A stretch of 64,000 nt of DNA from Usitatibacter palustris (GTDB lineage: Bacteria; Pseudomonadota; Gammaproteobacteria; Burkholderiales; Usitatibacteraceae): contig NZ_CP053073.1 in the NCBI RefSeq assembly GCF_013003985.1, positions 3,038,001 through 3,102,000 on the forward strand. Reading direction: 5' to 3'. The notes beneath the pieces are model-generated. The model saw only the letters and a list, made by a program, of their open reading frames with translations, had not been told where the DNA came from and did not search any database. The position numbers and the translations under genes are program-made. Of this stretch, positions 16,133 through 30,817 are shown in pieces (positions within the stretch are counted from its first letter, which is position 1; each line of letters opens with the position of its first letter).

Positions 16133-17092
16133 CTATTCAGCCTTGACGTTGGCGTCGCGAATCACCTTCGACCACTTCGCCGACTCGCTCGCCATCACCT
16201 TCGCGAATTCTTCGGAGGTGCCGCCGGTGATCTCGAAGCCCAGCTGGTGGAAGCGTTCCTTGATCGCGGGATCGGACAGGATCTTGTTCATCTCGGTGTT
16301 GATGCGGTCGGTGATCGCCTTGGGCGTGCCGGCCGGCGCGTAGATGCCGAAGTAGTTCCAGCTGTCGAAGCCCTTGAGGCCCGACTCGCTGATCGTCGGG
16401 ATGGCGGGTACCACCGTGGAGCGCGTAAGCGACGAGATGCCCAGCGCGTTGAGGCGCCCCGAGTCGAGGTGCGGCTTCGAGGTCATCACGTTGTCGAACA
16501 GGATCGCGACGTTGCCCTGCACGAGATCGGGGATCGAGAGCTGCGTGCCCTTGTACGGAACGTGCGTGAGCTTGATGCCCGCCTGCGCGGCGAACATCTC
16601 GGAGGTGAGGTGCGCCACGCTGCCGATGCCGGAGGTCGAGTAGTTGTACTTGCCCGGCTCCTTCTTCGCGAGCGCGATGAATTCCTCGACGGTCTTCGCC
16701 GGAACCTTCGGCGAGATGAGCATGATGTTGGTCGCGTAGCCCACGTAGATCACCGGCACGAAGTCCTTCACCGGGTCGTACGGAAGCTTCTGCAGGTACG
16801 GGCCCACCGAATGCGTGCTGCCCGTGGCCATGAGCAGGTTGTAGCCATCGTTCGGGCTCTTCGCCGCGAGGTCGGTGCCGATCGCCCCGCCCGCACCCGG
16901 TTTGTTGTCCACGACGACCGGCTGCCCCAGCGCGGTGCCGAGTTTGTCGGCGAGCGAGCGCGTGAGCACGTCGGTGGGGCCGCCCGCGGGAAACGGCACG
17001 ATCATCTTGATGGGCTTGCTGGGCCACCCCTGCGCCGCAGCGGAGGAGGAGAAAAGCGCCAGGGCCAGGGCCGGCAGCAGCGATCGCAGCAT
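16133..17092 (-). CDS. Bug/TctC family periplasmic substrate-binding protein
   Basis: A 319-residue periplasmic binding protein of the Bug family, which captures carboxylates for tripartite tricarboxylate transporters or as orphans. The signal peptide is MLRSLLPALALALFSSSAAA, then the signature WPSKPIKMIVPFPAGGPTDV and DNKPGAGGAIGTDLAAKSP that line the ligand pocket. No TctA/TctB genes are beside it, so it is an orphan copy, common in Burkholderiales-like genomes. It is upstream of the GGT-family gene in the same direction, which hints that its ligand might be processed by that enzyme (speculative). A divergent dehalogenase gene starts 88 bp away. Confidence 0.95.
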   Translation of the reverse strand: MLRSLLPALALALFSSSAAAQGWPSKPIKMIVPFPAGGPTDVLTRSLADKLGTALGQPVVVDNKPGAGGAIGTDLAAKSPNDGYNLLMATGSTHSVGPYLQKLPYDPVKDFVPVIYVGYATNIMLISPKVPAKTVEEFIALAKKEPGKYNYSTSGIGSVAHLTSEMFAAQAGIKLTHVPYKGTQLSIPDLVQGNVAILFDNVMTSKPHLDSGRLNALGISSLTRSTVVPAIPTISESGLKGFDSWNYFGIYAPAGTPKAITDRINTEMNKILSDPAIKERFHQLGFEITGGTSEEFAKVMASESAKWSKVIRDANVKAE

Positions 17093-17180
17093 GGGGGAGT
17101 GTCTCCGGAAGATTGCGTCCTAGCGTAACCTAGGCGGCGGCAAGCTGGAAGGTCGGCTCGAATATCATCGGATAACAATA

Positions 17181-17858
17181 ATGGCCCTTGAAATCTCCGC
17201 GCTCGTCTTCGACGCCTACGGCACCTTGTTCGACGTGCACAGCGTCGCGCGCAAGGCCGAGGCGCTCTATCCGGGCAAGGGTGACGCGCTCTCGCGCGCA
17301 TGGCGCACGAAGCAGCTTGAGTACACGTGGCTGCGCAGCCTCATGGGCAACTACGAGGATTTCAGCCGCGTGACGCTCGCGAGCCTCGAATGGGCGCTCG
17401 AGTCGCTGAAGATCGTGCCCGGCGATGCCGACAAGAGCGCGCTCTTCGATGAATACCGCAAGCTCGCGATGTTTCCCGAAGTGCCCGCCGCGCTCGATTC
17501 GTTCGCGCGCGCACGACCGCTCGCGATCCTTTCCAACGGGCATCCCGACATGCTCGAAGCCGTCGTCGAGCACAACCGGCTTCGCAACCTGTTTCGCGGC
17601 GGCGTGCTCAGCGTGCACGCCGCCAAGGTGTTCAAGCCCAACCCCGCGACCTATCACCTCGTCGAGGAACGCCTCGGCGTGCCGCGCGCGCTCGTCGGGT
17701 TCGTCTCTTCCAACGGCTGGGACGCCGCGGGCGCGAAGGCCTTCGGCTTCAAAGCCTTCTGGGTGAATCGCACGGGCCAGCCGGTCGAGCGCCTGGGCGT
17801 GCGGCCCGATGCGGTGGTACCCGACCTCGCCTCGCTCGCGGAAATGCTCGCGAAGTAA
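17181..17858 (+). CDS. L-2-haloacid dehalogenase (HAD type II)
   Basis: A 225-residue HAD hydrolase that replaces the halogen of L-2-haloacids with hydroxyl, giving D-2-hydroxy acids. All residues of the L-DEX active site have counterparts at the expected spacing: nucleophile D11 (VFDAYGTLFDV), T15, R42, S118-N119 (LSNG), K152, S176, N178, W180 and D181 (SSNGWD). The length also fits the family. It is transcribed alone, divergent from the Bug protein, and ends 3 bp from the convergent RCC1-repeat gene. Natural substrates may be halogenated acids; the family also contains members of uncertain substrate. Confidence 0.93.
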   Translation: MALEISALVFDAYGTLFDVHSVARKAEALYPGKGDALSRAWRTKQLEYTWLRSLMGNYEDFSRVTLASLEWALESLKIVPGDADKSALFDEYRKLAMFPEVPAALDSFARARPLAILSNGHPDMLEAVVEHNRLRNLFRGGVLSVHAAKVFKPNPATYHLVEERLGVPRALVGFVSSNGWDAAGAKAFGFKAFWVNRTGQPVERLGVRPDAVVPDLASLAEMLAK

Positions 17859-17861
17859 GCG

Positions 17862-19802
17862 TCACGGCACCCGGTAGACCCCGACGAGTCCCACGCCGGT
17901 CCCGCCGGTTCCCTGCACGACCGCGGTGTATGCGCCGGGCGGCAAGGTGAGCTTCACCGCGGGCTCGAGCACGTGCGCGGGCGCAAACCCCGCGGCCTGA
18001 ATCGCCGCGGCGTCAGCCGGATTGGTCTGCGTCTGCCAGTTGTCGTTGGATGCGATCACCGCTCCGTCGGTCGCTCGCACGATGTACAGCGTCGGGTTGG
18101 CGAGCGCGTTCGGAATCCCCGCGGGAATGAGCGACGGCCCGGCCACGGTCACGACCACCGTCTGCGTGCCGGTGCCCTGGACGATGAAGCCCGCGATCAT
18201 CACGTCGTTGCCGGTGAGCACCTGGCCGCGCGTCGAAATATTGGTAAGCGGCACTTCGGGGTGATCGACTTCGTAGACACCGACCAGACCCACACCCGTG
18301 CCTACGCCGCCGGAAGCCTGCACGATCGCCGTGTAGGCGCCGGGAGCGAGCGTCATCATGACCGCGGGCTCCGCCGGATGCGCGGGCGCAAATCCCGCCG
18401 CCTGGATCGCGGCCGCGTTCGGCGCATCGCCCCAGTTGTCGCTGGCACCCATCACAGCACCGTCGGAAGAGCGAATGAGCGTGAGCGTCGGATTGGAGAG
18501 CGCGTTCGGGATGCCAGCCGCCACGAGCGAAGGTCCGGCGACCGTCACCGCGACGGTCTTGGCCGTGGGTCCGCCGATGATGAAGCCCGCGATCATCACG
18601 TCATTGCCGGTCATCACCTGTCCGCGCGTGGAGAGGTTCACGAGCCTCGCATTGTTCACCGGCGGCGCGGGCACGTTCATCACCAGCACCGGCGTGCCGC
18701 TCGAGACCTGGTTGCCGGTGCCGAGCTGGCCGTCGCTGTTGTTCCCCCAGCAATAGATCGCGGTGTCGGTGGAGGCGCACGAATGCAGCCCTCCCGCGGC
18801 AATGTCCTCGACGCCGCCCGGCAGGCCCTGCACGGCCACGGGCACGTTGGTGCCGCCGGGAACGCTCGCGTTGCCGAGCTGCCCGGCGTTGTTCGCGCCC
18901 CAGCACACGGGGCCGGCGTTGCCGAGGCCGCATGCGTGCATGCCGTTGCCCGCCGAAAGCCAGGACACACCACTACCCATCCCCGTCACCGGCGATGGTG
19001 TGTTGATGTTGGACCCGCTGCCGTTGCCGAGCCGCCCCTGCCCGCCGTACCCCCAGCAGTACGCCGCGCCGTTGCTGATGCCGCAGTTGAAGAAGGCCCC
19101 GGTGCTCACCAGCTGGACATCGGATGTCGCACCCGAGACCTGCACGGGTCCCAGGTTGATGTACGTGTTGGTGCCGTCGCCCATCTCGCCCGAATCCCCG
19201 CGCCCCCAGCAGCGCGCCGCGCCGCTCGAGAGCAGCGCGCACGTGTGGTGCCTGCCCGCGTTGACGTCCAGGACACCCGTGCCGAGTCCCGCGACCGCCG
19301 TCGGCACCGCGCTCGAGAAGATCGAGGCGCCCGTGCCGAGCTGGCCGTATCCGCCACTGCCCCAGCACTTGGCGGCACCGTTATGCACCGCGCACGAATG
19401 CAGGTCGCCCACGGCGATCGCAGTCACGCCCGAGCTGAGGCCGCTCACCGCCACCGGCACGGGGCTGGTGGCGCTGCCGTTGTTGCCGAGCTGGCCGTAG
19501 GCGTTGTTGCCCCAGCAATACGCGCCGCCGTTCACGATCGCGCAGGTGTGCGCGCCGCTCGTGACGATCGCCTGCACGCCCGTGGTGAGGCCCTGCACCT
19601 GCGAGGGCGTGGTCGCCATCGAGAAGGTGCCGTTGCCCACCTGCCCTTCGATGTTGGCACCCCAGCAATAGGCGGCTCCGTTCACCGCGGCGCAGGTGTT
19701 GGTGCCGCCGGCCCAGAGGTACGGTGCGGCCGTGGTCGTGGAAGAGGCGCTGAAAAAGGCCGCCGTGGCGGCCAGCGCGAGCAGGGTCCTGGAAATAGTC
19801 AT
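17862..19802 (-). CDS. Secreted RCC1-repeat protein with duplicated C-terminal domain
   Basis: A 646-residue exported protein (signal peptide MTISRTLLALAATAAFFSASSTTTA is 25 residues). Seven RCC1-like repeats of about 50 residues fill residues 30-385; each carries a paired-cysteine core of the form HTCAxxNGxAYCWGxNxxGQLGNG, suggesting a disulfide-stabilised beta-propeller. Two tandem copies of a domain of about 127 residues follow (NxSTRGQVxTGNDVMIAGFI...GAYTAIVQ...GVGLVGVYEV). The same domain pair ends the upstream NHL protein. I chose the ATG at 19802 (GGAGC 6 bp upstream, good signal peptide) over the frame start at 19895. It follows the NHL gene by 19 bp and is the last gene of the ECF sigma/kinase group. 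Function unknown; an extracellular binding or structural role is plausible. Confidence 0.9.
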   Translation of the reverse strand: MTISRTLLALAATAAFFSASSTTTAAPYLWAGGTNTCAAVNGAAYCWGANIEGQVGNGTFSMATTPSQVQGLTTGVQAIVTSGAHTCAIVNGGAYCWGNNAYGQLGNNGSATSPVPVAVSGLSSGVTAIAVGDLHSCAVHNGAAKCWGSGGYGQLGTGASIFSSAVPTAVAGLGTGVLDVNAGRHHTCALLSSGAARCWGRGDSGEMGDGTNTYINLGPVQVSGATSDVQLVSTGAFFNCGISNGAAYCWGYGGQGRLGNGSGSNINTPSPVTGMGSGVSWLSAGNGMHACGLGNAGPVCWGANNAGQLGNASVPGGTNVPVAVQGLPGGVEDIAAGGLHSCASTDTAIYCWGNNSDGQLGTGNQVSSGTPVLVMNVPAPPVNNARLVNLSTRGQVMTGNDVMIAGFIIGGPTAKTVAVTVAGPSLVAAGIPNALSNPTLTLIRSSDGAVMGASDNWGDAPNAAAIQAAGFAPAHPAEPAVMMTLAPGAYTAIVQASGGVGTGVGLVGVYEVDHPEVPLTNISTRGQVLTGNDVMIAGFIVQGTGTQTVVVTVAGPSLIPAGIPNALANPTLYIVRATDGAVIASNDNWQTQTNPADAAAIQAAGFAPAHVLEPAVKLTLPPGAYTAVVQGTGGTGVGLVGVYRVP

Positions 19803-19821
19803 TGTCAGCTCCGGTTGTTTG

Positions 19822-22800
19822 TCACTGCACCTTGTAGACGCCCACGAGTCCCACGCCGGTGCCGCCGCTGCCCTGGACGATCGCCGTGTAGGCACCCGGC
19901 GGTAGCGTGAGGATCACCGCGGGCTCGAGCACGTGCGCGGGCGCGAAGCCTGCGGCCTGGATCGCCGCCACGTGCGCGGGGTTCGCCTGCGACTGCCAGT
20001 TGTCGTTGCTCGCGATCACCGCACCATCCGACGAGCGCACGATCGTGAGCACCGGATTGGCGAGCGCGTTGGGGATGCCTGCGTTCACGAGCGAGGGGCC
20101 GGCGACCGTGATCACCACTTGCTGCGTGTTGTCGCCGTAGACGATGAGTCCCGCGATCATCACGTCGTTGCCGGTGAGGACCTGGCCGCGCGTCGAGATG
20201 TTGATGAGCGGCACCTCGGGGTGGTCGACTTCGTAAACACCGACCAGCCCCACGCCCGTCCCGCCGGCCCCCTGCACGATGGCGGTGTAGGCGCCGGGCG
20301 CGAGCGTCGCGATGATCGCGGGCTCGAGCGCGTGCGCGGGCTCGAAGCCGCTCGCATGCAGCGCCGCACTGTCGGTCGGATTCGCTTGCGCTTGCCAGTT
20401 GTCGTTGCTCGCGATCACCGCACCATCCGACGAGCGAATCAACGTCAAGGTCGGATTGGCGAGCGCATTGGGGATCCCCGCGTTGACGAGCGACGGCCCC
20501 GCGACGGTCACCACCACCGTCTTCGCGCTGGGTCCGCCGATGATGAAGCCCGCGATCATCACGTCGCCACCGGTGAGTACCTGGCCGCGCGTGGAGAGGT
20601 TGGCAAGGCGCGGCGGATTGTTGTTGAGGAAGGTGACCGTCACCGTGGTCGCCGCGCTCAGCGGCACTTCGCACACGGCGGCAGTGCCGCTGCAATAGCT
20701 CCAGCCGGCCACCGTCGATCCGTTGGCCGGTGTCGCGGTGAGCGTCACGGTGGAGCCGGCGGCCACGGACTCGGTGCAATCCGATCCGCAGTTGATGATC
20801 GTCGGACCGCCATTGATGCTGCCGGTCACGATGCCCCCACCCGTTCCCGCCTTCGCGACCGTGAGCACGTGCGTGCCCGCCGATGCCGTGGTGCTCGTGA
20901 AGTTCGCGGAAACGCCCTCGATGGTGATCGTCGTGGTCGTCACCGTCGCGGGTGAAGCCGACGACGTATGCCGGACGCAGAGGGTCTGGCCACCCGTGAT
21001 CTGCATGGCCGTCGTGACGAAGGTGCCGGTGCAACCGATCGAGTAGCTCCCGCCCGTGACATTGACCCACGTGGGCGCGTTGTTCCCCGTGATCGTCACC
21101 GGGCTGGAGGTCACCACGGTGCCGGGCGCGACATTGACCGCCGGCGTGAACGAGAACGCGTTGGGCACGTAGTTATTCAGCACCGTCGTGCTGGTGAAGT
21201 TCGCCGCGACGCCACCGATCGTGAGTGTCGTCGTCGTCACCGTGCCGATCGCGCCTGCCGAGGTGTGGCGCACGCACACCGTCTGGCCGTTGGAGATCGT
21301 GCCCGCGGTCGTGACGAACGTGCCGGTGCAGCCGATCGAATAGCTGCCGCCCGTGACGCTGATGGGCGATGCGGCCTCGATGCCGGTGATCGTGACGGCG
21401 TTCGACGTGACGACCGTGTTGAGCTCGATGAAGCTCTTCGGCGTGAACGAGAAGGCATCGGGCGCGAGGTCGAGCAGCACGAAGTTCGCCTGCGGTTCCG
21501 CGCCTTCGGCCGGAAACCACGGTCCGATGCCCGCGTAGGTCATCGTCACGTTGCAGGTGCCCGTGCCCGAACAAACGTTCGACCAACCGGAGAACCGCCA
21601 ACCCGGCGCAGCCACCGCCGTCAGCGTCACGTTCGTTCCCACCGAGTACGCCTTTTCCGCCGAGGTGCACGCAGGCCCGCACGAAATGCCCGCCGGCGAG
21701 CTCGTCACCGTGCCCGTTCCCGTCTTGGTGACGGCCAGCCGGTGTCCGAACTCCACGGTCGCGGCCGCATTGCCGGTGACCGTGAATGCGCATTGCCCGT
21801 TGAAGAGGTTGCCCGTGCCGCCCTCGCAGGTGACACCGCTGAACCCCACGACCGCCGCGCCGGACTGGGCCGTGCCGCCGAGAAACACCTGCGACCCCTT
21901 GATCGCGGTGGCCGTGCAGGCGCTGCCGCTGCTGCACGAATCGAGAGGCGACATGCCGATGAGGCCGGCACTGCCGAAACCCGTGAACGTGATCGTGTGC
22001 ATCGTGTTCGGCGTCGCGCTGCCCGACGCATTCGAGAGGGCACTTGTTCCGACGCCGTTCGCGGCGACCACGCGGCAGGTGTAGGGCGTGCCGTTGACGA
22101 GGCCGGTGACCAGGATCGGAGACGACAGGCCCGACGCGCTCTGCGCGCCGCAGGTCACGGTGTAAGTCGCCATCCAGCCGCCGTCGCTCTGGGGGTAGAA
22201 CTCGACGCTCAGCTGCCCGTTGCCGGGCGTGACCGAGCCGATGATCGGCGTTTGTGGAGCCGTGGCCGGGGGCGTGGGCGTCGTGACTTTGCGCACGCGA
22301 TGGTTCTGGCGATCCACGATGAGGAGGCTGCCGTCGGTATCGAGTGCAACGCCGTCCGGACCGAAGAGCTGCGCATTCGCAGCCGCTCCACCATCGCCGC
22401 CGAACCCGCCGAAGGAACCTCCGGCGATCGTGCTCACGATGAAGTTGGTCGCCACGTAGCGAACCTTGTTCTCGTGGGCGATGTAGAAGCCGCCCGAGGG
22501 AGCCACCGCCACCCCGCGCGGGTTGTCGATTCGCGTCTGCAGGGACGAGCTGCCATCGCCGAAGTACGAGGATCCGGTATTGCCGGCGACCCACCAGATC
22601 GTGCCCGACGGGTCGACCCTGCGAATGGCGCTGTTGCCGTGATCGGCGATGAAGACGCGCCCGAGGCTGTCGACCGCGACGTCCATCGGGTCGTTGAGCG
22701 GTGCGGTGTTCGCGGGTCCGACGTCGTAGCCGTAGCCGGGGACGCCCGTGCCCGCGAGCGTCGTGATGACGCCGTTGAAGATTCGGCGCACGCGATGCCC

Positions 22801-23337
22801 GAGGCCTTCGACGACGTAGAGGCTTCCATCCGTGTGCCAGGCCAGGGCCCGGGGTCCGTTGAGCCGCGCGAAGATCGGCGAGCCGCCGTCGCCGAGGCTG
22901 CCGGGAATGCCGTTGCCGGCGATGGTGTCGATGTTGCCGCTCGTATCGATGCGCCGGACGCGGTGATTGTTCGTGTCCGCGATGTACAGGTTGCCCGCGG
23001 CATCCCGCGCGATGCCCTGCGGATTGTCGAGCTGTGACGACGTGGCGCTCATGCCATCGCCGAAGAAGCCGGCGAAGCCGTTGCCTGCGAGCGTGGTGAT
23101 GACCCCGAACCGGTCGATCTTGCGGATGGCGTGATTGGACGAGTCGGCGACGTAGATGTTGCCGTCGCTGTCCGCAACCGTGGCCGAAGGAAGATTCAGC
23201 TGCGCGAACCGCGCCTGCCCGCCATCGCCACCGAAGAAGTTGTTGCCGTCACCCGCGATCGTGGTGATGGTGCCCGCGTACGCGGTAGACCCTGCGAAAA
23301 ACAGCACCGCCAGCGACTTCGCCCAGTTGCGCACCAT
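19822..23337 (-). CDS. Large secreted NHL-repeat/FnIII/repeat-domain protein
   Basis: A 1171-residue exported protein with signal peptide MVRNWAKSLAVLFFAGSTAYA. Residues about 25-350 are NHL propeller blades (LxxPxGIAxDAAGNLYIADTNNHRVRRID and relatives). A fibronectin type III-like segment (about 360-445) and an InlB-like divergent repeat with GTGTVTSSPAGISCGPACTS follow. Next come two copies of a 90-residue module FSFTP...GGSYSIGCTGTFVTTAG...CVRHTS, and another CxxxC repeat (GPTIINCGSDCTESV). The last 250 residues are two copies of the same STRGQVLTGxDVMIAGFI domain found in the RCC1 protein. It sits 63 bp after the kinase gene. Such architectures fit a large cell-surface or released adhesive/sensory protein; no catalytic motif was seen. 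Confidence 0.9.
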   Translation of the reverse strand: MVRNWAKSLAVLFFAGSTAYAGTITTIAGDGNNFFGGDGGQARFAQLNLPSATVADSDGNIYVADSSNHAIRKIDRFGVITTLAGNGFAGFFGDGMSATSSQLDNPQGIARDAAGNLYIADTNNHRVRRIDTSGNIDTIAGNGIPGSLGDGGSPIFARLNGPRALAWHTDGSLYVVEGLGHRVRRIFNGVITTLAGTGVPGYGYDVGPANTAPLNDPMDVAVDSLGRVFIADHGNSAIRRVDPSGTIWWVAGNTGSSYFGDGSSSLQTRIDNPRGVAVAPSGGFYIAHENKVRYVATNFIVSTIAGGSFGGFGGDGGAAANAQLFGPDGVALDTDGSLLIVDRQNHRVRKVTTPTPPATAPQTPIIGSVTPGNGQLSVEFYPQSDGGWMATYTVTCGAQSASGLSSPILVTGLVNGTPYTCRVVAANGVGTSALSNASGSATPNTMHTITFTGFGSAGLIGMSPLDSCSSGSACTATAIKGSQVFLGGTAQSGAAVVGFSGVTCEGGTGNLFNGQCAFTVTGNAAATVEFGHRLAVTKTGTGTVTSSPAGISCGPACTSAEKAYSVGTNVTLTAVAAPGWRFSGWSNVCSGTGTCNVTMTYAGIGPWFPAEGAEPQANFVLLDLAPDAFSFTPKSFIELNTVVTSNAVTITGIEAASPISVTGGSYSIGCTGTFVTTAGTISNGQTVCVRHTSAGAIGTVTTTTLTIGGVAANFTSTTVLNNYVPNAFSFTPAVNVAPGTVVTSSPVTITGNNAPTWVNVTGGSYSIGCTGTFVTTAMQITGGQTLCVRHTSSASPATVTTTTITIEGVSANFTSTTASAGTHVLTVAKAGTGGGIVTGSINGGPTIINCGSDCTESVAAGSTVTLTATPANGSTVAGWSYCSGTAAVCEVPLSAATTVTVTFLNNNPPRLANLSTRGQVLTGGDVMIAGFIIGGPSAKTVVVTVAGPSLVNAGIPNALANPTLTLIRSSDGAVIASNDNWQAQANPTDSAALHASGFEPAHALEPAIIATLAPGAYTAIVQGAGGTGVGLVGVYEVDHPEVPLINISTRGQVLTGNDVMIAGLIVYGDNTQQVVITVAGPSLVNAGIPNALANPVLTIVRSSDGAVIASNDNWQSQANPAHVAAIQAAGFAPAHVLEPAVILTLPPGAYTAIVQGSGGTGVGLVGVYKVQ

Positions 23338-23400
23338 GTCCGACTCCCGCCGGGCCGTAGGGCCCCTGCCTGCTGGAACGGGAAACGGACGGAAATCCGG

Positions 23401-25986
23401 TCAACGCGGCGGCGAGGTCCCCGGCGCACCGCGATCGAGGGCGGCCAGCTGCTGGTCCACCGAGAGGGCGGCCGCGCGCAGCTCCGCGACGTATTTCACG
23501 GGAACATCGCCCCATTTCTCGGCGATCGCCCGGTCGATGAAGGCCAACCCCGCCGCGTAAAGGATCTTCGCCTCGGCGAGGTCCGCGCGCCGCGCCGCCG
23601 GGGACGCCTTCGCGCTTCGCGCACGGGTGATGAGGGCATCGGCCAGCGAGATCTGCGCTTGCGATTGGACGTTGCTTGCGTCGCGGGCGCGCTGCGCATC
23701 CGGGGGGATCCTCGCGAAGATCGCATTGGCCTCGCGGCCGTGCTCGATCGCAAGATCGAGGTGACCGAGCGTCATCGCGCCAACCGCCGCCCGCCCGAGG
23801 GTGAAGGCGTGCCAGACGAGGACCTGGGCGTCGCCCGGCTCGGCGGCGAACATGGTGCGCGAGTTCGCCAGGGCCTCGTTGATCGCGGCATAGGCGGCTT
23901 CGGTCTTTCCCGACCAGAACAGGGCCTCGGCATACTCGCCCAGCGTGAACGTCAGGGTCATGCGCATGCTGCGCGTGGCCGCGGGCGACACCACGAGCTC
24001 GTGCAGCAGCGCAAGCGCCCTTTCACTGAACGGCAGGGCCGCCGGCGCCGTCTCGAACCGCCGCTGCGGATCGATCGTCGCGACCGCCGCGCGGCGATTG
24101 GCGTAGGCCAGCACCAGGCGCGCGCGAAGACTCTCCGGATGCGCCCGCACCAGCGCTTCGAGCTCCACCATCACCGGACGCAGCTCCGCCAACGCGCCGG
24201 GGCGATTGGCGGACACGACGTCCGTGAAGGCCGCGCGATTGGTCCGGACGTCGAGCCACGCGAGGCGATCGTCCAGCGTCGCACCCGGCTGCTTCATGGC
24301 GTGCTCGGCCACGCGGACGGCGGAGGTAATCGTCTCGTGCATCCGCGCGTCGCTGCGCTGCGCGAGGAAGTTGGCGCTGTGGTCGAGCACCGTCCGCAAC
24401 TCCCGCAGCAAGGCGAGGTCGTCCGGGTGCCTCGCCTCGAGCGGCGTGAGGATCGACCGCGCCTTGGCAATCACCTGCGCGGCGCGCTCGGGCTCGCCGA
24501 GGTTCGCGCGATTGGGCTGGCCGAGGATCTCCGACACTTTTCGATACGCCGTGGCGAGCTCGAGCTGCAGGGAATCGTCGCCGGCCGATTCCGCGGCGAG
24601 GTTGTCGAGATACTTGAGCGACGTGTCCGCGAGCAGGCGGCGCGCGGCCAGCGTGCCGTCGACCTTGTCGATCGCATCGTAGAGGTCGAACATGATCGTG
24701 TTCGCGAGGCTTCGCACGCTCGCGAAGTGGCGCTCCGCCCGTTCGCGCTGGCCGATGGCGATCACGAGGCCCACCGCGAGCGCGATCACGACGCCCGCGG
24801 CCGTGGCGATCGGCAGTCGATGACGGCGCACGAAGCGGCCGGCGAGATAACGCCAGGTGCCGGCGCGCGCAGCCACCGGCCGGTGTGCGAGATGCGCGGC
24901 GAGGTCGGTGTCGAACGCTTCGATCGACGCATAGCGCGCGGCCGGATCGCGACGCAATGCCTTGAGGAGGATCGCATCGAGATCGCCCGCAAGGGAGCGC
25001 GCTGAAGCAATGGACGATGGGGCCGTGACCTCGGACTGCAGCAGCGTGGCCTCGTGGAAGCTGCGCCCCTCGCGCACTGCCGTATAGGGCGACGCTCCCG
25101 AGAGCAGTTCGTAGAGCAGCACACCCAGCGCGTAGATATCCGTGGCGGTCGTGATTGCTTCGCCCGCGGCCTGCTCGGGTGCGGCGTAGCGCAGCGTCAT
25201 CACACGGCCCCCAAGCCGGGTGAGATCGCGTGCGCCTTCCGGAACCTCCGCCTCATCGAGAAGCTTCGCGATCCCGAAGTCGAGCAGCTTCACCTGGCCC
25301 GACGCGTCGACGAGGATGTTGGCGGGCTTCAAGTCGCGATGCACGACGAGGTGGCGATGCGCGTGCGAAACCGCCGCGAGCACCTGCCGGAAGAGCGCGA
25401 TGCGCGCATTCGTATCGAGGCTGCGGGCCTTCGCCGCGTCGAGCAGCGAATGGCCGTCCACGTACTCCATCGCGAGCCACGGCTGGCCCGCGTCCGTCAC
25501 GCCCGCATCGTAGAGCCGCGCGATGTTCGGATGCGTGAGCTTCGCGAGGATGTCGCGCTCGCGGCGGAAGCGCTCCTGCCAGTGCTCGCCGGAAAGCCAC
25601 GCGGCGGGGAGCTTCAGCGCGACGTGACGCGTGATGCGGCCATCGGATTGCTCCGCAAGCCAGACCTCGCCCATGCCGCCGCGGCCGAGGGGCCGCTCGA
25701 GCGTGAACGGACCGATGCCCTGGCCCGCGGTCCACGCGCTGTGCGAAGGCGGCGGCGGCGCGAGCTTGGGCACCGTCTCCAGCGATCCGGAGTGTTCCGC
25801 GCGAATGTGGTTCGCGACGAGGCGTCGCAGCATCGGTGCGAGCTCGGGCTCGGTGGCATCGAGCCCGGCGAGCCAGCGCTCGCGCGCCTCGGCTTCCATG
25901 TCGAATGCCGAGGCGAGCAAGGGCTCGAGGCGCTTCCAGGTTTCGCGCGAGAGGTTCACCGCCGCCTCAGGAGAAGAATCGGCCAT
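23401..25986 (-). CDS. Transmembrane serine/threonine protein kinase with C-terminal TPR-like sensor region
   Basis: An 861-residue Hanks-type kinase. Residues 1-80 form an N-terminal helical region common in sigma-linked kinases. The kinase domain (about 94-370) has the glycine loop GRGGMGEV at 101-108, K125, HRDLKPANI with D218, DFG at 236-238 and APEQ near 269. A single membrane helix follows at about 391-412 (LPIATAAGVVIALAVGLVIAIG), then about 450 residues of helical TPR-like repeats outside the membrane. The ECF sigma gene is 39 bp upstream, the arrangement known for ECF43-type sigma factors whose activity is controlled by a kinase. It probably phosphorylates the adjacent sigma factor (inference). 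The NHL and RCC1 proteins downstream may be its regulon or its sensory partners. Confidence 0.95.
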   Translation of the reverse strand: MADSSPEAAVNLSRETWKRLEPLLASAFDMEAEARERWLAGLDATEPELAPMLRRLVANHIRAEHSGSLETVPKLAPPPPSHSAWTAGQGIGPFTLERPLGRGGMGEVWLAEQSDGRITRHVALKLPAAWLSGEHWQERFRRERDILAKLTHPNIARLYDAGVTDAGQPWLAMEYVDGHSLLDAAKARSLDTNARIALFRQVLAAVSHAHRHLVVHRDLKPANILVDASGQVKLLDFGIAKLLDEAEVPEGARDLTRLGGRVMTLRYAAPEQAAGEAITTATDIYALGVLLYELLSGASPYTAVREGRSFHEATLLQSEVTAPSSIASARSLAGDLDAILLKALRRDPAARYASIEAFDTDLAAHLAHRPVAARAGTWRYLAGRFVRRHRLPIATAAGVVIALAVGLVIAIGQRERAERHFASVRSLANTIMFDLYDAIDKVDGTLAARRLLADTSLKYLDNLAAESAGDDSLQLELATAYRKVSEILGQPNRANLGEPERAAQVIAKARSILTPLEARHPDDLALLRELRTVLDHSANFLAQRSDARMHETITSAVRVAEHAMKQPGATLDDRLAWLDVRTNRAAFTDVVSANRPGALAELRPVMVELEALVRAHPESLRARLVLAYANRRAAVATIDPQRRFETAPAALPFSERALALLHELVVSPAATRSMRMTLTFTLGEYAEALFWSGKTEAAYAAINEALANSRTMFAAEPGDAQVLVWHAFTLGRAAVGAMTLGHLDLAIEHGREANAIFARIPPDAQRARDASNVQSQAQISLADALITRARSAKASPAARRADLAEAKILYAAGLAFIDRAIAEKWGDVPVKYVAELRAAALSVDQQLAALDRGAPGTSPPR

Positions 25987-26025
25987 CCATGCCTTCCTAA
26001 CGCAGTGCCGCCGGAAATCCGGCCA

Positions 26026-26577
26026 CTAGTCGCCGATCAACGTGAGCAGCAGGGCGCGCGCCTTCTGCCATTCGCGGCGCACGGTTCGCTCCGAGATGCC
26101 CAGGGCGGTGGCGACCTCAGGCTCGGTGAGGCCACCGAAGAAACGCATCTCCACCAGGCGCGCGAGCGGCGGGTCGATGGTGGCAAGGCTGGTGAGCGCA
26201 TCGTCGACGCGCTCGAGGTCGAGCGAAGGCGGGAGGCCCGCGCCCGCGGCCGTATCGAGGGTGACGATCTCGGCGCCGCCGCCCCGGCGCAACGCGCGCT
26301 CCTCGCGAACCGCATCGATGATGAGGGTTCGCAGCGTGCGCGCGGCGTAGGCGATGAAATGCAGGCGATCGGGAAAGGCCCGTGTCGGGCCGGAGGCGAG
26401 CTTGAGGTAGCTCTCATTGACCAGCGCCGTGGTCTGCAGCTGCCCGTTGAGGCCCGTGCCGCGCAACCGCGCGTGGGCAATGCGCTTGAGGTCCGGGTAG
26501 AACGCCTCGAAGGCCCGGTCGAGGGCCGCCCGGTCCCCGCTTTCGAGGCGCTCAAGGGCCGAAGCGATTTCGCTCAC
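26026..26577 (-). CDS. ECF RNA polymerase sigma factor (TIGR02999/ECF43-like, kinase-associated)
   Basis: A 183-residue sigma-70 ECF protein. Region 2 includes LKRIAHARLRG and the hallmark QTTALVNESYLKL (residues about 47-60), followed by FPDRLHFIAYAARTLRTLIIDAVRE. Region 4 has the helix-turn-helix GLTEPEVATALGISERTVRREWQKAR. This subfamily typically sits beside a Ser/Thr kinase and lacks a classical anti-sigma factor; here the kinase gene follows after 39 bp. No anti-sigma gene is seen nearby. It starts only 25 bp after the tctA stop, so it may be transcribed with the transporter as well as from its own promoter. Target promoters were not identified. Confidence 0.93.
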   Translation of the reverse strand: MSEIASALERLESGDRAALDRAFEAFYPDLKRIAHARLRGTGLNGQLQTTALVNESYLKLASGPTRAFPDRLHFIAYAARTLRTLIIDAVREERALRRGGGAEIVTLDTAAGAGLPPSLDLERVDDALTSLATIDPPLARLVEMRFFGGLTEPEVATALGISERTVRREWQKARALLLTLIGD

Positions 26578-26602
26578 GGCCGTCTCCCGATGGGCTCCCC
26601 GG

Positions 26603-28117
26603 TCAAACCGGGGGCGGTTCCTGGAACGCTTCCTCGCGCTTCTTCGAGATGGACGGCGCGAACACGATGACCAGCAGCAGGCCGGCGATCACGAGCAGCG
26701 TGGCGCTGATGGGCCGCGTGAAGAACACCGCGGGATCGCCGCGCGAGAGCAGGAGTGCACGCCTCAGGTTCTCTTCCATCATCGGCCCCAGCACGAAGCC
26801 CAGCAGCAGCGGCGCGGGCTCGCAGTCGAGCTTGATGAAGACGTAGCCGATGAGGCCGAAGAGCGCCGTGAGGTAGACGTCCATCGTCGCGTTGTTGATC
26901 GAGTACACGCCGATGCAGCAGAACACGAGGATCGCGGGATAAAGGAAGCGGTACTGCACGGAAAGGAGCTTCACCCACAGGCCGATCAGCGGGAGATTCA
27001 GCACCACGAGCAGGAAGTTGCCGACCCACATCGAGGCGATCATTCCCCAGAAGAGCTCGGGCTTCGCGGTCATGATCTGCGGGCCGGGCTGGATGCCGTG
27101 GATGATCATCGCGCCGATCATCAGCGCCATCACCGGGTTGGACGGAATGCCCAGCGTGAGCAGCGGGATGAACGAGGTCTGCGCCGCCGCGTTGTTCGCC
27201 GACTCCGGAGCCGCGACGCCTTCGATGGCGCCCTTGCCGAAGCGGCTCGGATCCTTCGCGAGCTTCTTTTCCAGCGTATAGGCCGAGAACGCGCCGAGCA
27301 CCGGCCCACCGCCGGGGAGGATGCCCAGCATCGCGCCCAGCGTGGTTCCGCGAAGAGTTGGAAGGGACGCCTGCTTGATGTCCGACCAATTGGGCAACAG
27401 GCCGTGGATGCTCTTCGTGAACACCTCTCGCTTCTCCCCTTGCTCGAGGTTGCGAATGATCTCCGCGAAGCCGAACACACCCATCGCGACCACGCCGATG
27501 CCCACGCCATCGATCAGCTCGGGCATGCCGAGGTTGTAGCGCGCGACGCCGGAATTCACGTCCGTGCCGATGAGGCCCAGCAGCAGTCCGAGAAGGATCA
27601 TCGCGATCGCCTTGATGAGCGAGCCGTGCGCCAGAACCACGGCCGCTATCAATCCGAGCACCATGAGCGAGAAGTAGTCGGCAGGACCGAATTTCAGCGC
27701 GAGCTCGGCGAGCGGCGGGGCGAACCCCGCGATCAGGAACGTGGCCACCGTGCCGGCGAAGAACGACGAAAGCGCCGAGATGCCCAGCGCCTTGCCGGCG
27801 TTGCCCTGCCTCGCCATCTGGTAGCCATCGAGACAGGTGACCACCGATGAGACCTCCCCGGGGAGGTTCACGAGGATCGCGGTCGTCGAGCCGCCGTATT
27901 GCGCGCCGTAGTAGATGCCCGCGAGCATGATCAGCGCGGAGACCGGCGGCAGCACGAACGTTGCCGGCAGCAGCATGGAGATCGTCGCGATCGGTCCGAT
28001 GCCGGGAAGGACGCCGATCAGCGTGCCGAGCATCACGCCGATGAAGCAGTACATGATGTTCGTGAACGTCAGCGCGACGCCGAAGCCCATTGCGAGGTTG
28101 CCGAAGATTTCCATCAT
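26603..28117 (-). CDS. tctA: Tripartite tricarboxylate transporter large permease TctA
   Basis: A 504-residue inner-membrane permease with about a dozen hydrophobic helices. It shows the TctA signatures GVLPGIGPIATISMLLPATF (near 37-56), GIYYGAQYGGSTTAILVNLPGE (near 68-89) and GILPGGGPVLGAFSAYTLEK (near 263-282). It transports a carboxylate delivered by the TctC protein, with TctB as small subunit; the order here is tctC-tctB-tctA, and TctB is 12 bp upstream. With the tartrate-dehydrogenase-like gene just before tctC, a dicarboxylate such as tartrate or malate is the best guess for substrate. Confidence 0.96.
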   Translation of the reverse strand: MMEIFGNLAMGFGVALTFTNIMYCFIGVMLGTLIGVLPGIGPIATISMLLPATFVLPPVSALIMLAGIYYGAQYGGSTTAILVNLPGEVSSVVTCLDGYQMARQGNAGKALGISALSSFFAGTVATFLIAGFAPPLAELALKFGPADYFSLMVLGLIAAVVLAHGSLIKAIAMILLGLLLGLIGTDVNSGVARYNLGMPELIDGVGIGVVAMGVFGFAEIIRNLEQGEKREVFTKSIHGLLPNWSDIKQASLPTLRGTTLGAMLGILPGGGPVLGAFSAYTLEKKLAKDPSRFGKGAIEGVAAPESANNAAAQTSFIPLLTLGIPSNPVMALMIGAMIIHGIQPGPQIMTAKPELFWGMIASMWVGNFLLVVLNLPLIGLWVKLLSVQYRFLYPAILVFCCIGVYSINNATMDVYLTALFGLIGYVFIKLDCEPAPLLLGFVLGPMMEENLRRALLLSRGDPAVFFTRPISATLLVIAGLLLVIVFAPSISKKREEAFQEPPPV

Positions 28118-28129
28118 GTCGTTGTCTTT

Positions 28130-28642
28130 CTAGCCGCGGCAGAGCCGCAGTTCCTGGAGGGAATCCAGGTTCGGGCACAGCGGAATCGGGAGCTTCAGTC
28201 CGTAGACGAACACCGCGGCCGAGAAGACGATCAGGCCCAGCGCGAGGAAGATCACGGGCTTCCACTTGAAGTCGTGGCTGCCCATGCTGGCGACGACCAC
28301 GAGCACGAGCGCGGCCACCGGCATGCCCATGGGCTTGAGCAGCACGCCGAAGAGGCACACGCCCCCGAGGACGAACCCGATCGGGCCCCAGTGGAATTTC
28401 TCCACCGTCTTGCCTTTCCCCTTGAGGCCGGGGAGCGCGATCATGACGCCGATGATGAAAAGGATGACGCCGAGCCAGAAGGGGAAGTAGGCGGGGCCCA
28501 TCCGCGCCGCGGTGCCCATCGCGTAGCCGGGGAGAATCACGATGTCGCCGAGCTTCACGCCGAACGCGATGACCGCGAAGACGAGGCCGATCGCGGCGAA
28601 CATGACGCCGCCCCAGAAATCCGTGGATTTGTTGATCTTCAT
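28130..28642 (-). CDS. tctB: Tripartite tricarboxylate transporter small permease TctB
   Basis: A 170-residue membrane protein with four predicted helices (about residues 10-30, 51-70, 87-120 and 130-150). It begins MKINKSTDFWGGVMFAAIGLVFAVIA and contains the GTAARMGPAYFPFWLGVIL segment typical of TctB. It lies between tctC (84 bp upstream) and tctA (12 bp downstream). TctB is the poorly conserved membrane partner of TctA, needed for transport. Confidence 0.93.
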   Translation of the reverse strand: MKINKSTDFWGGVMFAAIGLVFAVIAFGVKLGDIVILPGYAMGTAARMGPAYFPFWLGVILFIIGVMIALPGLKGKGKTVEKFHWGPIGFVLGGVCLFGVLLKPMGMPVAALVLVVVASMGSHDFKWKPVIFLALGLIVFSAAVFVYGLKLPIPLCPNLDSLQELRLCRG

Positions 28643-28726
28643 GGGAGCTCGATTTTCAAGGTGCGCAACGGACCGATTATGTCAGCATCGGGCCGTCGCG
28701 CAATGACGCAGTGCAACAGTCGCGCC

Positions 28727-29680
28727 TTATTTAGCCAGGCCCATCAGCTTCGCGACCTCCAGGTACTTCTTCGTCCGTTCCGCCACGAAAGCGGGCATCT
28801 TGTCGTAGGTGATGTCGGCGAGCTCGAAGCCCCCGTCGAGCATGTTCTTCCTGAACTCCGGATCGGCGTTCACCGCGGCGAACATGTCCGAAAGGCGCTT
28901 GCGAAGATCCTCCGGCGTCGACTTGGGAACGCCGATGCCGCGGAAGGCCCCGTCGACCCAGTCGGTCATGCCGAGCTCCTTGAACGTGGGCGTGTCCGGG
29001 AAGAGCGCGAGGCGCTTTTCCGTCGCGACCGCGAGCACGCGGCACTTGCCCTTCTGCAGCAGGGCGAGCGTCGAGTACGACATCGCGCCATCGACGTGGC
29101 CGCCCAGGAGCGAAGCGACGAGGTCGCCCGTGCCCTTGAAGGGAACGTACGTGGTCTTGATGCCCGCGGCGTGATTGAGACGCTCGTGCGCCGCGTGGTT
29201 CGCGGAGTTCGTCCCCGAGCCGGCGAAGTTGAGCTTGCCCGGCGCGGCCTTCGCCGCCGCCACGAGGTCCGCATACGTCTTGAACGGCGACTCGTTCCTC
29301 ACGATGATCGCGTCGGGCGTGTACTGGAAGAAGTGGATGTTGGTGATGTCCTCGGTCTTGTACTGCACGTTGCCTTCGAGGGGCTGGAGCACGATGTGCG
29401 GCAGGTTCGTGCCCATCACCACGTAGCCGTCACCGGGGAACGTGTTGAGCTGGGACCACGCGAGCGCGCCGCCCGCACCGGGCTTGGACTCGACCACCAG
29501 CTCCTGGCCGAAGAGCTTCCGGAACGGCGCCTGCTGGAAGCGCGCCGCCACGTCCGACTCGCCGCCAGGCGCGAAGGGAATGATGTAGCGGACCGGTTTT
29601 TCGGGAAAGGCTGCCCGCGCAGGGAAGGCCAGCGAAGTGGCGAGCGCGCCGCCTGCCACCATGAAGTCGCGTCGTTTCAT
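28727..29680 (-). CDS. tctC: Tripartite tricarboxylate transporter substrate-binding protein TctC (Bug family)
   Basis: A 317-residue periplasmic binding protein. The N-terminus MKRRDFMVAGGALATSLAFPARA has a twin-arginine-like KRRDF motif, so it may use the Tat route, unlike the Sec-type Bug protein at 16133. The Bug pocket motifs are FPEKPVRYIIPFAPGGESDV and ESKPGAGGALAW. It feeds TctAB encoded immediately downstream. Upstream is a gene for a tartrate-dehydrogenase-like enzyme, so uptake and catabolism of a hydroxy-dicarboxylate are likely linked. The 84-bp gap to tctB shows nothing notable. Confidence 0.95.
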   Translation of the reverse strand: MKRRDFMVAGGALATSLAFPARAAFPEKPVRYIIPFAPGGESDVAARFQQAPFRKLFGQELVVESKPGAGGALAWSQLNTFPGDGYVVMGTNLPHIVLQPLEGNVQYKTEDITNIHFFQYTPDAIIVRNESPFKTYADLVAAAKAAPGKLNFAGSGTNSANHAAHERLNHAAGIKTTYVPFKGTGDLVASLLGGHVDGAMSYSTLALLQKGKCRVLAVATEKRLALFPDTPTFKELGMTDWVDGAFRGIGVPKSTPEDLRKRLSDMFAAVNADPEFRKNMLDGGFELADITYDKMPAFVAERTKKYLEVAKLMGLAK

Positions 29681-29700
29681 CGTTCATCTCCTCGAGTTGA

Positions 29701-29753
29701 TGGGGTGATCCCCCAATTTCTTGTTACAAAAAAATAATGGGGTCAGACCCCAT
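29701..29753. repeat. Two short palindromes, GGGGTGATCCCC and GGGGTCAGACCCC types
   Basis: TGGGGTGATCCCCCA (29701-29715) and the perfect 17-bp ATGGGGTCAGACCCCAT (29737-29753) occupy the gap between the tartrate-dehydrogenase-like gene and tctC. The second shares GGGGTCAGAC with the arms of the 53711-53802 palindrome and resembles the gluQ repeats. They could also give hairpins that shape the operon transcript. Confidence 0.8.
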
Positions 29754-29761
29754 TCATTTGT

Positions 29762-30817
29762 CTAGATCGCCGCGGCGATGGCCTTGCCGACCTCCACGGT
29801 GTTGGCCGTGCCGCCCATGTCGCGCGTGCGCGGCCCGTCCTTCAGGACCTTCTCGATGGCGGCGACGATCGCGTCGGACGCATCGCCGTGGCCCAGGTGA
29901 TCGAGCATCATCGCGCCCGACCAGATCTGCCCGATCGGATTGGCAATGCCCTTGCCCGCGATGTCCGGCGCGCTGCCATGCACCGGTTCGAAGCACGACG
30001 GGAATTCCTTTTCCGGGTTGATGTTCGCGCCCGGCGCGATGCCGATCGTTCCGGTGCACGCGGGGCCGAGGTCGGAAAGGATGTCGCCGAAGAGGTTCGT
30101 GCCCACGACGACGTCGAACCAGTCCGGGTGCTGGACGAAGTGCGCCGTGAGGATGTCGATGTGGTACGACGAGGTCTTGATGTCCGGGTATTCGGCGGAG
30201 ATCGCCTTGAAACGCTCGTCCCAGTACGGCATGGTGATCGCGATGCCGTTGGACTTCGTGGCGGACGTGACGTGCTTGCGCTTGCGCTTCTTCGCGAGCT
30301 CGAAGGCGAAGCGCATGATGCGGTCCGTTCCCTTCTTGCTGAGAATGGTGAGCTGCGTGACGAACTCCGATTCCAGGCCGGCGTACATCTTTCCGCCGAT
30401 CGACGAATACTCGCCCTCGTTGTTCTCGCGCACGACCCAGAAGTCGATGTCCCCGGGCTTGCGGTTGGCGAGCGGCGAAGGCACGCCGGGCATCAGGCGC
30501 ACCGGCCGCAGATTCACGTACTGCTGAAACTCGCGGCGGATCGGGATGAGCAGTCCCCACAGCGACACGTGGTCGGGCACGCCGGGAAAGCCCACGGCCC
30601 CGAGGTAGATCGCGTCGTGGTTGCGGATCTGCGCGAGGCCATCGGCGGGCATCATGTGGCCGTGCTTCGCGTAGTACTCGCAGCTCCACGGCTTCTCGTC
30701 CCAATGGAAACCGAAACCGTACTTGCGGCCCACGGCATCGAGCACGCGGATGCCCTCGGGCATGACTTCGTTGCCGATGCCGTCCCCGGCGACGACGGCG
30801 ATGCGGTACGTCTTCAA
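29762..30817 (-). CDS. Tartrate dehydrogenase/decarboxylase-like enzyme (isopropylmalate dehydrogenase family)
   Basis: A 351-residue NAD-dependent beta-decarboxylating dehydrogenase. It starts LKTYRIAVVAGDGIGNEVMPEGIRVLDAVG. It has the substrate loop GGKMYAGLESEF replacing the isopropylmalate arrangement, the catalytic segment with lysine at SATKSNGIAITMPYWDE, the metal aspartates in TNLFGDILSDLG and the NAD motif PVHGSAPDIAGKGIANP. This combination is typical of TtuC-type tartrate/D-malate dehydrogenases. The start is a TTG at 30817, chosen because GAGGAG lies 7 bp upstream and the alignment begins there; an ATG further up would add 52 unrelated residues. It lies 10 bp after the hydrolase gene and upstream of tctCBA. 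D-malate and meso-tartrate are alternative substrates. Confidence 0.92.
   Translation of the reverse strand: MKTYRIAVVAGDGIGNEVMPEGIRVLDAVGRKYGFGFHWDEKPWSCEYYAKHGHMMPADGLAQIRNHDAIYLGAVGFPGVPDHVSLWGLLIPIRREFQQYVNLRPVRLMPGVPSPLANRKPGDIDFWVVRENNEGEYSSIGGKMYAGLESEFVTQLTILSKKGTDRIMRFAFELAKKRKRKHVTSATKSNGIAITMPYWDERFKAISAEYPDIKTSSYHIDILTAHFVQHPDWFDVVVGTNLFGDILSDLGPACTGTIGIAPGANINPEKEFPSCFEPVHGSAPDIAGKGIANPIGQIWSGAMMLDHLGHGDASDAIVAAIEKVLKDGPRTRDMGGTANTVEVGKAIAAAI

Follow-up and report, generated by a model that had tools for sequence, protein, structure and literature searches.

In Xanthomonas citri, the ECF43 sigma factor EcfK has a phospho-threonine in region 2.2, within the motif QATE, and is encoded adjacent to the Hanks kinase PknS, which consists of an 83-amino-acid N-terminal extension, a kinase domain, a transmembrane helix and a periplasmic TPR region; the output of this pair is a type VI secretion system acting against amoebae (PMC13147305). 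In Vibrio parahaemolyticus, the sigma factor EcfP is inactive for want of acidic residues in region 2.2 and becomes active when the kinase PknT phosphorylates the second threonine of its STTA motif; the regulon concerns polymyxin resistance, and exported propeller genes find no mention in the accessible part of that account (PMC8999054). The second threonine of the motif is the phosphorylated residue in ECF43 members (PMC13147305, PMC8999054), with QTTA as the consensus (PMC13147305). Few outputs of ECF43 factors are known, namely the type VI system and polymyxin resistance, and no target promoter is named in the accessible parts of these two papers. A pair of this kind was analysed here in a 64,000-nucleotide stretch of the 3.96-Mb genome of Usitatibacter palustris (NZ_CP053073.1; the stretch is called the window, the genome G000), where the genes for an ECF43-type sigma factor, a Hanks-type kinase, an NHL-repeat protein and an RCC1-repeat protein follow each other on the minus strand with intergenic gaps of 39, 63 and 19 bp, and where a bipartite DNA element lies in the gaps behind the sigma and kinase genes.

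The window pair resembles EcfK/PknS in having an ECF43 sigma factor with a candidate threonine in region 2.2 and an adjacent transmembrane kinase with an N-terminal extension and a TPR-like ectodomain. It differs from that system in its motif, QTTA instead of QATE, and in its predicted output, which is exported repeat proteins rather than type VI secretion; the same predicted output of exported propeller proteins separates it from EcfP/PknT with its polymyxin resistance. The switch is of a known kind, and the predicted output is new and well-marked; no prior description was found in a search of the open-licence literature.

The explanation considered probable is that the sigma factor, when phosphorylated, starts transcription at the element TGGCSK-N17-CGTTY located before the kinase gene and before the NHL-RCC1 gene pair. 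The ectodomain would sense a signal in the envelope or outside the cell, the kinase would phosphorylate the sigma factor at T50 and thereby switch it on, and the phosphorylated factor would most likely initiate transcription at the element, which is proposed on sequence grounds to be the promoter that this sigma subgroup recognises. The copy behind the sigma gene would drive the kinase gene, giving positive feedback on the sensor, while the copy behind the kinase gene would drive the export pair, whose products are expected to function on the cell surface or beyond it.

The sigma factor and its kinase

Against the NCBIfam model TIGR02999 the sigma protein scored 160.5 bits (cut-off 126.15), and it is the sole match above the cut-off in the genome. 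Residues 48–51 read QTTA, an uncharged region-2.2 motif replacing DxxD/DAED, with T50 as the candidate phospho-threonine. T49, T50 and A51 are invariant across an alignment of 12 subgroup sequences, as is T106 in the linker, which bears the same residue number as the second EcfK site (the numbers were compared without alignment to EcfK). As is typical of ECF43 factors, a Hanks kinase gene is the immediate downstream neighbour, and the other neighbours identified, namely tctA, genes for exported proteins and a HAD hydrolase gene, include no anti-sigma gene.

The kinase shows the traits of PknS-like kinases. An N-terminal extension of about 90 residues is followed by a kinase domain with the active-site motifs GxGGMG, VALK, HRDLKPAN and DFG (at 101, 122, 216 and 236), a transmembrane helix read off the sequence, and a TPR-like outer region at approximately residues 411–861. 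Pfam gives no TPR above its cut-off for this ectodomain; a structure model based on nine sequences (predicted local distance difference test, pLDDT, 86.7; predicted template-modelling score, pTM, 0.85) is an all-helical repeat closest to TPR-type proteins, with a best Z of 25.9 and a root-mean-square deviation (rmsd) of 5.5 over 352 residues. An earlier note on this DNA had proposed the ECF43/TIGR02999 class, the neighbouring Hanks kinase and an external TPR region, and all three agree with these results. Given the TIGR02999 score, the QTTA motif, the PknS-like architecture and the TPR-like model, the sigma and kinase half of the locus is an ordinary, standard ECF43 pair.

The bipartite element

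The 29-nt element was derived from words enriched in the gaps behind sigma and kinase genes, the window gaps included, which were lined up by eye. A profile model, R1, was then made from 14 sites of relatives and none from the window. In the U. palustris genome, where 150 of 3473 first-look candidates were scored, R1 gave four sites at E<=10, two of them being the sigma-kinase and kinase-NHL gaps. The naive chance of two gap matches among four is approximately 1e-9; since the gaps of the window belonged to the set in which the motif first appeared, this figure is not a proper p-value. Within the window, the two gaps ranked first and second (E 0.013 and 0.026, the third site having E 2.5), and the same two came top with a simpler matrix weighted without the window sites, the columns of which were picked after seeing them. 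Of the remaining two genomic sites, one falls on the opposite strand within an unrelated gene; the other, which is the best of the four, lies about 50 nt before a gene for a 146-amino-acid exported protein. No element was found in the 19-bp NHL-RCC1 gap, so that the RCC1 gene is presumably co-transcribed with the NHL gene.

In the subgroup, the element follows the sigma gene in 11 of 13 loci including the window; in the two exceptions, L079 and L087, the kinase frame follows the sigma gene directly without a gap, as read by eye. It is also present after the kinase gene and before the cargo, meaning the exported-protein genes behind the pair, in the window, L072, L075 (weakly), L079, L086, L088, L120 and L125, and after the kinase gene of a second, paralogous module, L118.

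Across 28 genomes of the family, R1 detected 67 sites at E<=3 and 31 at E<=0.3 (ten of them training sites), against eight and none for a reversed-motif control. The 21 non-training sites at E<=0.3 were judged by eye: 14 precede an exported protein, six do not and one is unclear. A scripted signal-peptide rule accepted 12 of 19 re-fetched low-E sites compared with 430 of 2950 positions drawn at random from family loci (p 2e-6 to 2e-5), this rule miscalling ccmF (11 sites without it) and missing one site accepted by eye. The 14 sites judged by eye to precede an exported protein include the gap between the kinase and RCC1 genes in G015, that between the kinase and DUF5122 genes in a second module of G010, and sites before a DUF5122 gene standing alone in G018, an RCC1 gene behind a degraded sigma gene in G009 and an FG-GAP/DUF5122 gene in G004. 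The genes behind R1 sites encode RCC1, DUF5122, FG-GAP/DUF5122, collagen-like, S74 (with YadA-head-like parts) and DUF6683 proteins. In L251 (G009:C94 28556–28968), a degraded ECF43 sigma gene with one stop codon (69 bits) still precedes a copy of the element, and next comes a gene for a 1205-amino-acid RCC1 protein. Among the 13 genomes that are at least 90% complete, a non-training site before an exported gene (E<=0.3, by eye) was present in all seven with the sigma subgroup (G000, G002, G004, G007, G009, G010 and G015) and in none of the six without it (G006, G011, G012, G013, G014 and G022; Fisher 6e-4).

The element might instead serve another factor, either a different sigma factor or as an RNA-level element near ribosome binding sites, with the ECF43 pair as one client among others. 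Many sites are indeed close to start codons, and four exported-gene sites occur in genomes in which no sigma factor of the subgroup was detected (G003, G020, G026 and G027, metagenome-assembled genomes of 73–88% completeness). This alternative is nevertheless judged improbable, as two boxes at a fixed 17-nt spacing, with less conserved sequence between them, have the geometry of a sigma-type promoter like those of known ECF factors, sites and sigma subgroup go together, as judged by eye, in 13 of 13 near-complete genomes, and R1 gave one weak match (E 2.8) in the 66 loci treated as non-family. The initiation of transcription at the element by the phosphorylated ECF43 factor is preferred. The earlier note had named the secreted propeller pair as the output of the switch, a proposal which at that time had proximity in its favour; as a prediction it gains support from the element lying before the kinase and NHL genes and before exported genes of relatives, and the kinase gene is supported as an additional predicted target.

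A second motif, TNGACAA-N14-GCTANNNTC, was considered as the target of the switch and rejected. It lies upstream of the sigma gene in L072, L077, L088 and L120, and with mismatches in L130; L072 has a further copy ahead of its cargo (L072 93–122 and 3382–3411). Leave-one-out scores were 20–24.5 against a random maximum of 9.7; ten exact sites were found in the 28 genomes, five of them in the source loci, and no match in the genome of U. palustris. By inspection, the motif fits housekeeping −35/−10 boxes at 17 nt equally well and is probably the promoter of the sigma gene in relatives.

It should also be noted that the 146-amino-acid protein belongs to a small exported family of 146–149 amino acids (L262 4981–5418, near 1906970 of G000; L249 4933–5379; L259; L075 from 7589). 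Homologues follow the element in G004 and in G002, and one comes immediately after the kinase gene in L075 of G017 (phmmer E 1e-27, 2e-25 and 1e-14); two members scanned against Pfam gave no match.

Exported proteins behind the pair

A TIGR02999 search of 61 genomes, that of U. palustris included, gave matches above the cut-off in 16, all from the family of the window, at 42 sites; the 41 sites outside the own genome were taken in 40 regions, many of which stop at contig ends. Searching named genomes with the alignment of the subgroup yielded a second set of 79 loci, from the best 80 of 453 relatives. Loci were taken as outside the family when they were among these 79 but not among L122–L132 or L173 and L175, two contigs that also figure among the family loci; for the rest a place outside the family was assumed, although L133 may belong to it. 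A locus was counted as informative when 2 kb or more of sequence followed the kinase gene, and a propeller (NHL, RCC1, DUF5122, FG-GAP or Kelch) was counted within the next two genes on the same strand. On this basis, a propeller follows the kinase in 8 of 25 informative family loci, or 10 of 27 with the window and L125 added (L125 rests on a 226-amino-acid RCC1 reading 1.5 kb after the preceding gene), and none was detected in the 39 informative loci outside the family as so defined, where it was sought by local phmmer against family references. Pfam was additionally applied to two genes of L133 and to seven larger genes that lie downstream in L154 and six other loci, these seven giving MMPL, UvrD, wax-ester synthase and PEP-CTERM but no propeller. 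With the window excluded, the enrichment is 9 of 26 family loci against 8 of 236 other nearby genes (p 2.8e-5) and against 0 of 39 other loci (Fisher 1e-4), both p-values being generous because the loci are related to each other.

The order sigma-kinase-NHL-RCC1 was found neither at the 41 other above-cut-off sites nor in the 79 scanned loci. The nearest orders are sigma-kinase-DUF5122-RCC1 (L069/L126) and sigma-kinase-DUF5648 protein-RCC1 piece (L125), and NHL followed by RCC1 occurs in no relative examined. The narrow claim of the earlier note, which looked to relatives for the same four-gene order and named its absence as a refutation, thus fails. The wider claim of a conserved switch with changing export cargo stands. 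Pfam architectures cover 15 neighbouring proteins. In the closest subgroup the cargo varies nearly from locus to locus: DUF5122 then RCC1 in L069/L126, DUF5122 in L072 and L120, RCC1 in L088, DUF5648 then an RCC1 piece in L125, collagen/S74 in L084 and beta-helix with collagen in L086. No cargo follows the pair in L077 and L087, and in L075, L079 and L085 the sequence ends soon after the kinase gene, in two of them past the start of a signal-peptide-bearing gene. In a comparison of cargo with the tree, the deeper forks were too weakly resolved for a count of cargo swaps.

Both exported proteins of the window start with a Sec-type signal peptide, as read off the sequence without a predictor. 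Their last ~260 residues, a feature absent from the earlier note, are the same duplicated domain, here called CTR; it forms the two C-terminal PPC-like domains of the NHL protein, which also has Flg_new_2 stretches, and the two C-terminal CTR domains of the RCC1 protein. The CTR unit is about 130 residues long and, with two copies in each window protein, occurs in 26–27 stretches of the genome, in 18 proteins according to the gene calls made here, these two included. It was not found in the 27 other family genomes (E<=1e-10) or, with up to six candidates scored per genome, in the 397 other members of a phylum-wide genome sample (E<=1e-8). No match to PPC, which we take to be Pfam PF04151, was seen at E<=10, none came near any Pfam threshold, and no PDB sequence matched. 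A model from four sequences (pLDDT 81.7) is a beta-sandwich like those of PPC and collagen-binding domains, with a Foldseek E of 6e-5 to the PPC domain 5sv5 and a VIA Z of 10.7 (rmsd 2.9 over 98 residues) to 9ues_B, in a list of fold matches which cannot show the absence of a family. The domain is called PPC-like and not PPC because the fold is alike without a Pfam sequence match. Like PPC and collagen-binding domains, it is a small beta-sandwich with which exported proteins end; its sequence was found in one of 28 family genomes and one of 398 phylum-sample genomes at the above thresholds. A search for its origin gave no plasmid match and no viral relative, other phyla lying outside that search.

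Thirteen CTR genes are located at 3.433–3.480 Mb (G000 3433517–3480072) amid genes which, from their sequence, read like polysaccharide synthesis; others lie at 176332–183335, and one NHL-CTR protein (3533044–3537873) adjoins a response-regulator-like gene. R1 has no site at any of these other CTR genes, which rules out CTR as a mark of the regulon. The lineage appears to have put one tail on many exported proteins, of which only the window pair seems wired to the ECF43 switch, since the element was found at none of the others.

The 16 further CTR proteins lie far from the single ECF43 gene of the genome, propeller domains are common in the family, and tctA, a transporter gene, ends only 25 bp before the sigma gene on the same strand. 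These observations would suit passive hitch-hiking, in which the tct operon transcript extends into the NHL and RCC1 genes, or the housekeeping sigma factor serves them, and the cargo is mobile. Such hitch-hiking is regarded as quite improbable in view of the propeller enrichment behind the pair (9 of 26 against 8 of 236 and 0 of 39) and the presence of the element at both gaps; moreover, 7 of 10 other kinase genes in the genome were checked and no propeller was found within the 12–18 kb taken.

Identity to orthologues is 64% for the sigma factor, 67% for the kinase domain, 52% for the membrane-near part of the ectodomain and 25% for the remainder. As judged from sequence comparison, the sigma factor, the kinase domain and the bipartite element are conserved in the family, and the outer part of the sensor ectodomain and the cargo vary strongly. 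This joint divergence of cargo type and ectodomain would also be expected if the propeller proteins were part of the sensor, as exported partners or ligands which attach to the TPR-like ectodomain and so control the kinase, an idea compatible with the switch at the element. The TPR domains resembling the ectodomain model, for example those of LGN, Rap and NprR, bind peptides or proteins, although a common fold alone gives no function. Cargo-type genes with the element, however, also lie away from any fetched kinase gene, and some pairs have no adjacent cargo. The lone apparent kinase-propeller fusion, a 1935-amino-acid open reading frame in L069/L126, was rejected, being a frameshifted kinase end which runs into the next gene with its own new signal peptide. 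A sensor role of the propeller proteins is accordingly seen as unlikely.

Several points weigh against the preferred reading, in which the phosphorylated sigma factor acts at the element. The sites for the model were chosen by eye from the enriched-word list, R1 misses its own training site of L085 at E<=10, and the two sites of the window have low scores of 13.0 and 12.1 bits (genome-wide E 0.8 and 1.6). The six low-E non-training sites of 21 without an exported gene are in or beside unrelated genes (glyA, ccmF, sdaA and others), the call 'exported' was made by eye or by a crude rule, sites at E 0.3–3 show no enrichment for exported genes (6 of 32), and the four sites in genomes without the detected subgroup count here as well. 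The CGTT box of the kinase gene ends 12 nt before the start codon, so that a transcript from there would be nearly leaderless, and the element may act post-transcriptionally. The orthologous pairs L077/L123 and L087/L132 have no cargo behind them, and the other CTR proteins of U. palustris lack the element.

It is proposed, tentatively, that in a wider frame a kinase-switched sigma circuit with a family-specific promoter element could control exchangeable exported proteins, its ectodomain diversifying with the cargo, as a form of surface or matrix switching. If so, the sigma factor, kinase domain and promoter would be fixed with the sensor and the product varying by lineage. The predicted target element and the candidate targets in many genomes make the ECF43 pathway testable with reporters, and they open a way to study the large propeller, FG-GAP, collagen-like and S74 proteins which these bacteria export in numbers.

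Two further loci of the family were noted. In L110 (1400–9550), a 2716-amino-acid protein with a reprolysin-like domain and Kelch and FG-GAP repeats is encoded by a gene whose end is some 92 bp from the start of a different ECF43 sigma gene in the family. In strain GR16-43 (L123 7706–9967 / L077), a second kinase gene (753 amino acids, with a related ectodomain) precedes the sigma gene, which is thus flanked by two kinase genes. The sigma-kinase pair of this strain is orthologous to that of the window, and the strain also has a site of the element, away from the pair, in front of an FG-GAP gene.

Gene layout and transcription-unit borders

The four-gene leftward layout and the gap lengths given in the earlier note agree with the open reading frame calls, Pfam and NCBIfam. 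Coordinates within the window are listed in the table. The Pfam matches were Sigma70_ECF for the sigma factor, Pkinase for the kinase, NHL/TEN_NHL and Flg_new_2 for the NHL protein and RCC1 in seven stretches for the RCC1 protein; an alternative GTG reading of the RCC1 gene (677 amino acids) would run into the NHL gene.

Features of the sigma-kinase-NHL-RCC1 region in window coordinates
Feature	Position	Strand	Description
Sigma gene	26026..26577	-	183 aa, GTG start, ECF43-type (TIGR02999)
Element copy 1	25999..26025	-	after sigma stop codon, before kinase
Kinase gene	23401..25986	-	861 aa, ATG start, Hanks-type Ser/Thr kinase
Element copy 2	23377..23403	-	overlaps kinase stop codon, 39 nt before NHL start codon
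NHL gene	19822..23337	-	1171 aa, ATG start, exported NHL-repeat protein
CTR of NHL protein	19825..20613	-	duplicated C-terminal domain
RCC1 gene	17862..19802	-	646 aa, ATG start, exported RCC1-repeat protein
CTR of RCC1 protein	17865..18650	-	duplicated C-terminal domain
tctC-tctB-tctA	26603..29680	-	tripartite tricarboxylate transporter, upstream of sigma gene
Terminator-like hairpin with T-run	29736..29754	-	upstream of tctC

Given the closeness of tctA, which the earlier note did not mention, the transcript may begin ahead of the sigma gene, and the sigma-kinase-NHL-RCC1 group may be the tail of a longer transcription unit. At the other end, a convergent HAD hydrolase gene lies 3 bp from the end of the RCC1 gene. 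A scan of 17000–30500 for consensus sigma-70 promoters gave zero sites. Terminator-like sites in the region numbered 13, against 7.3 expected from shuffles, and the hairpin upstream of tctC is a possible border of the transcription unit.

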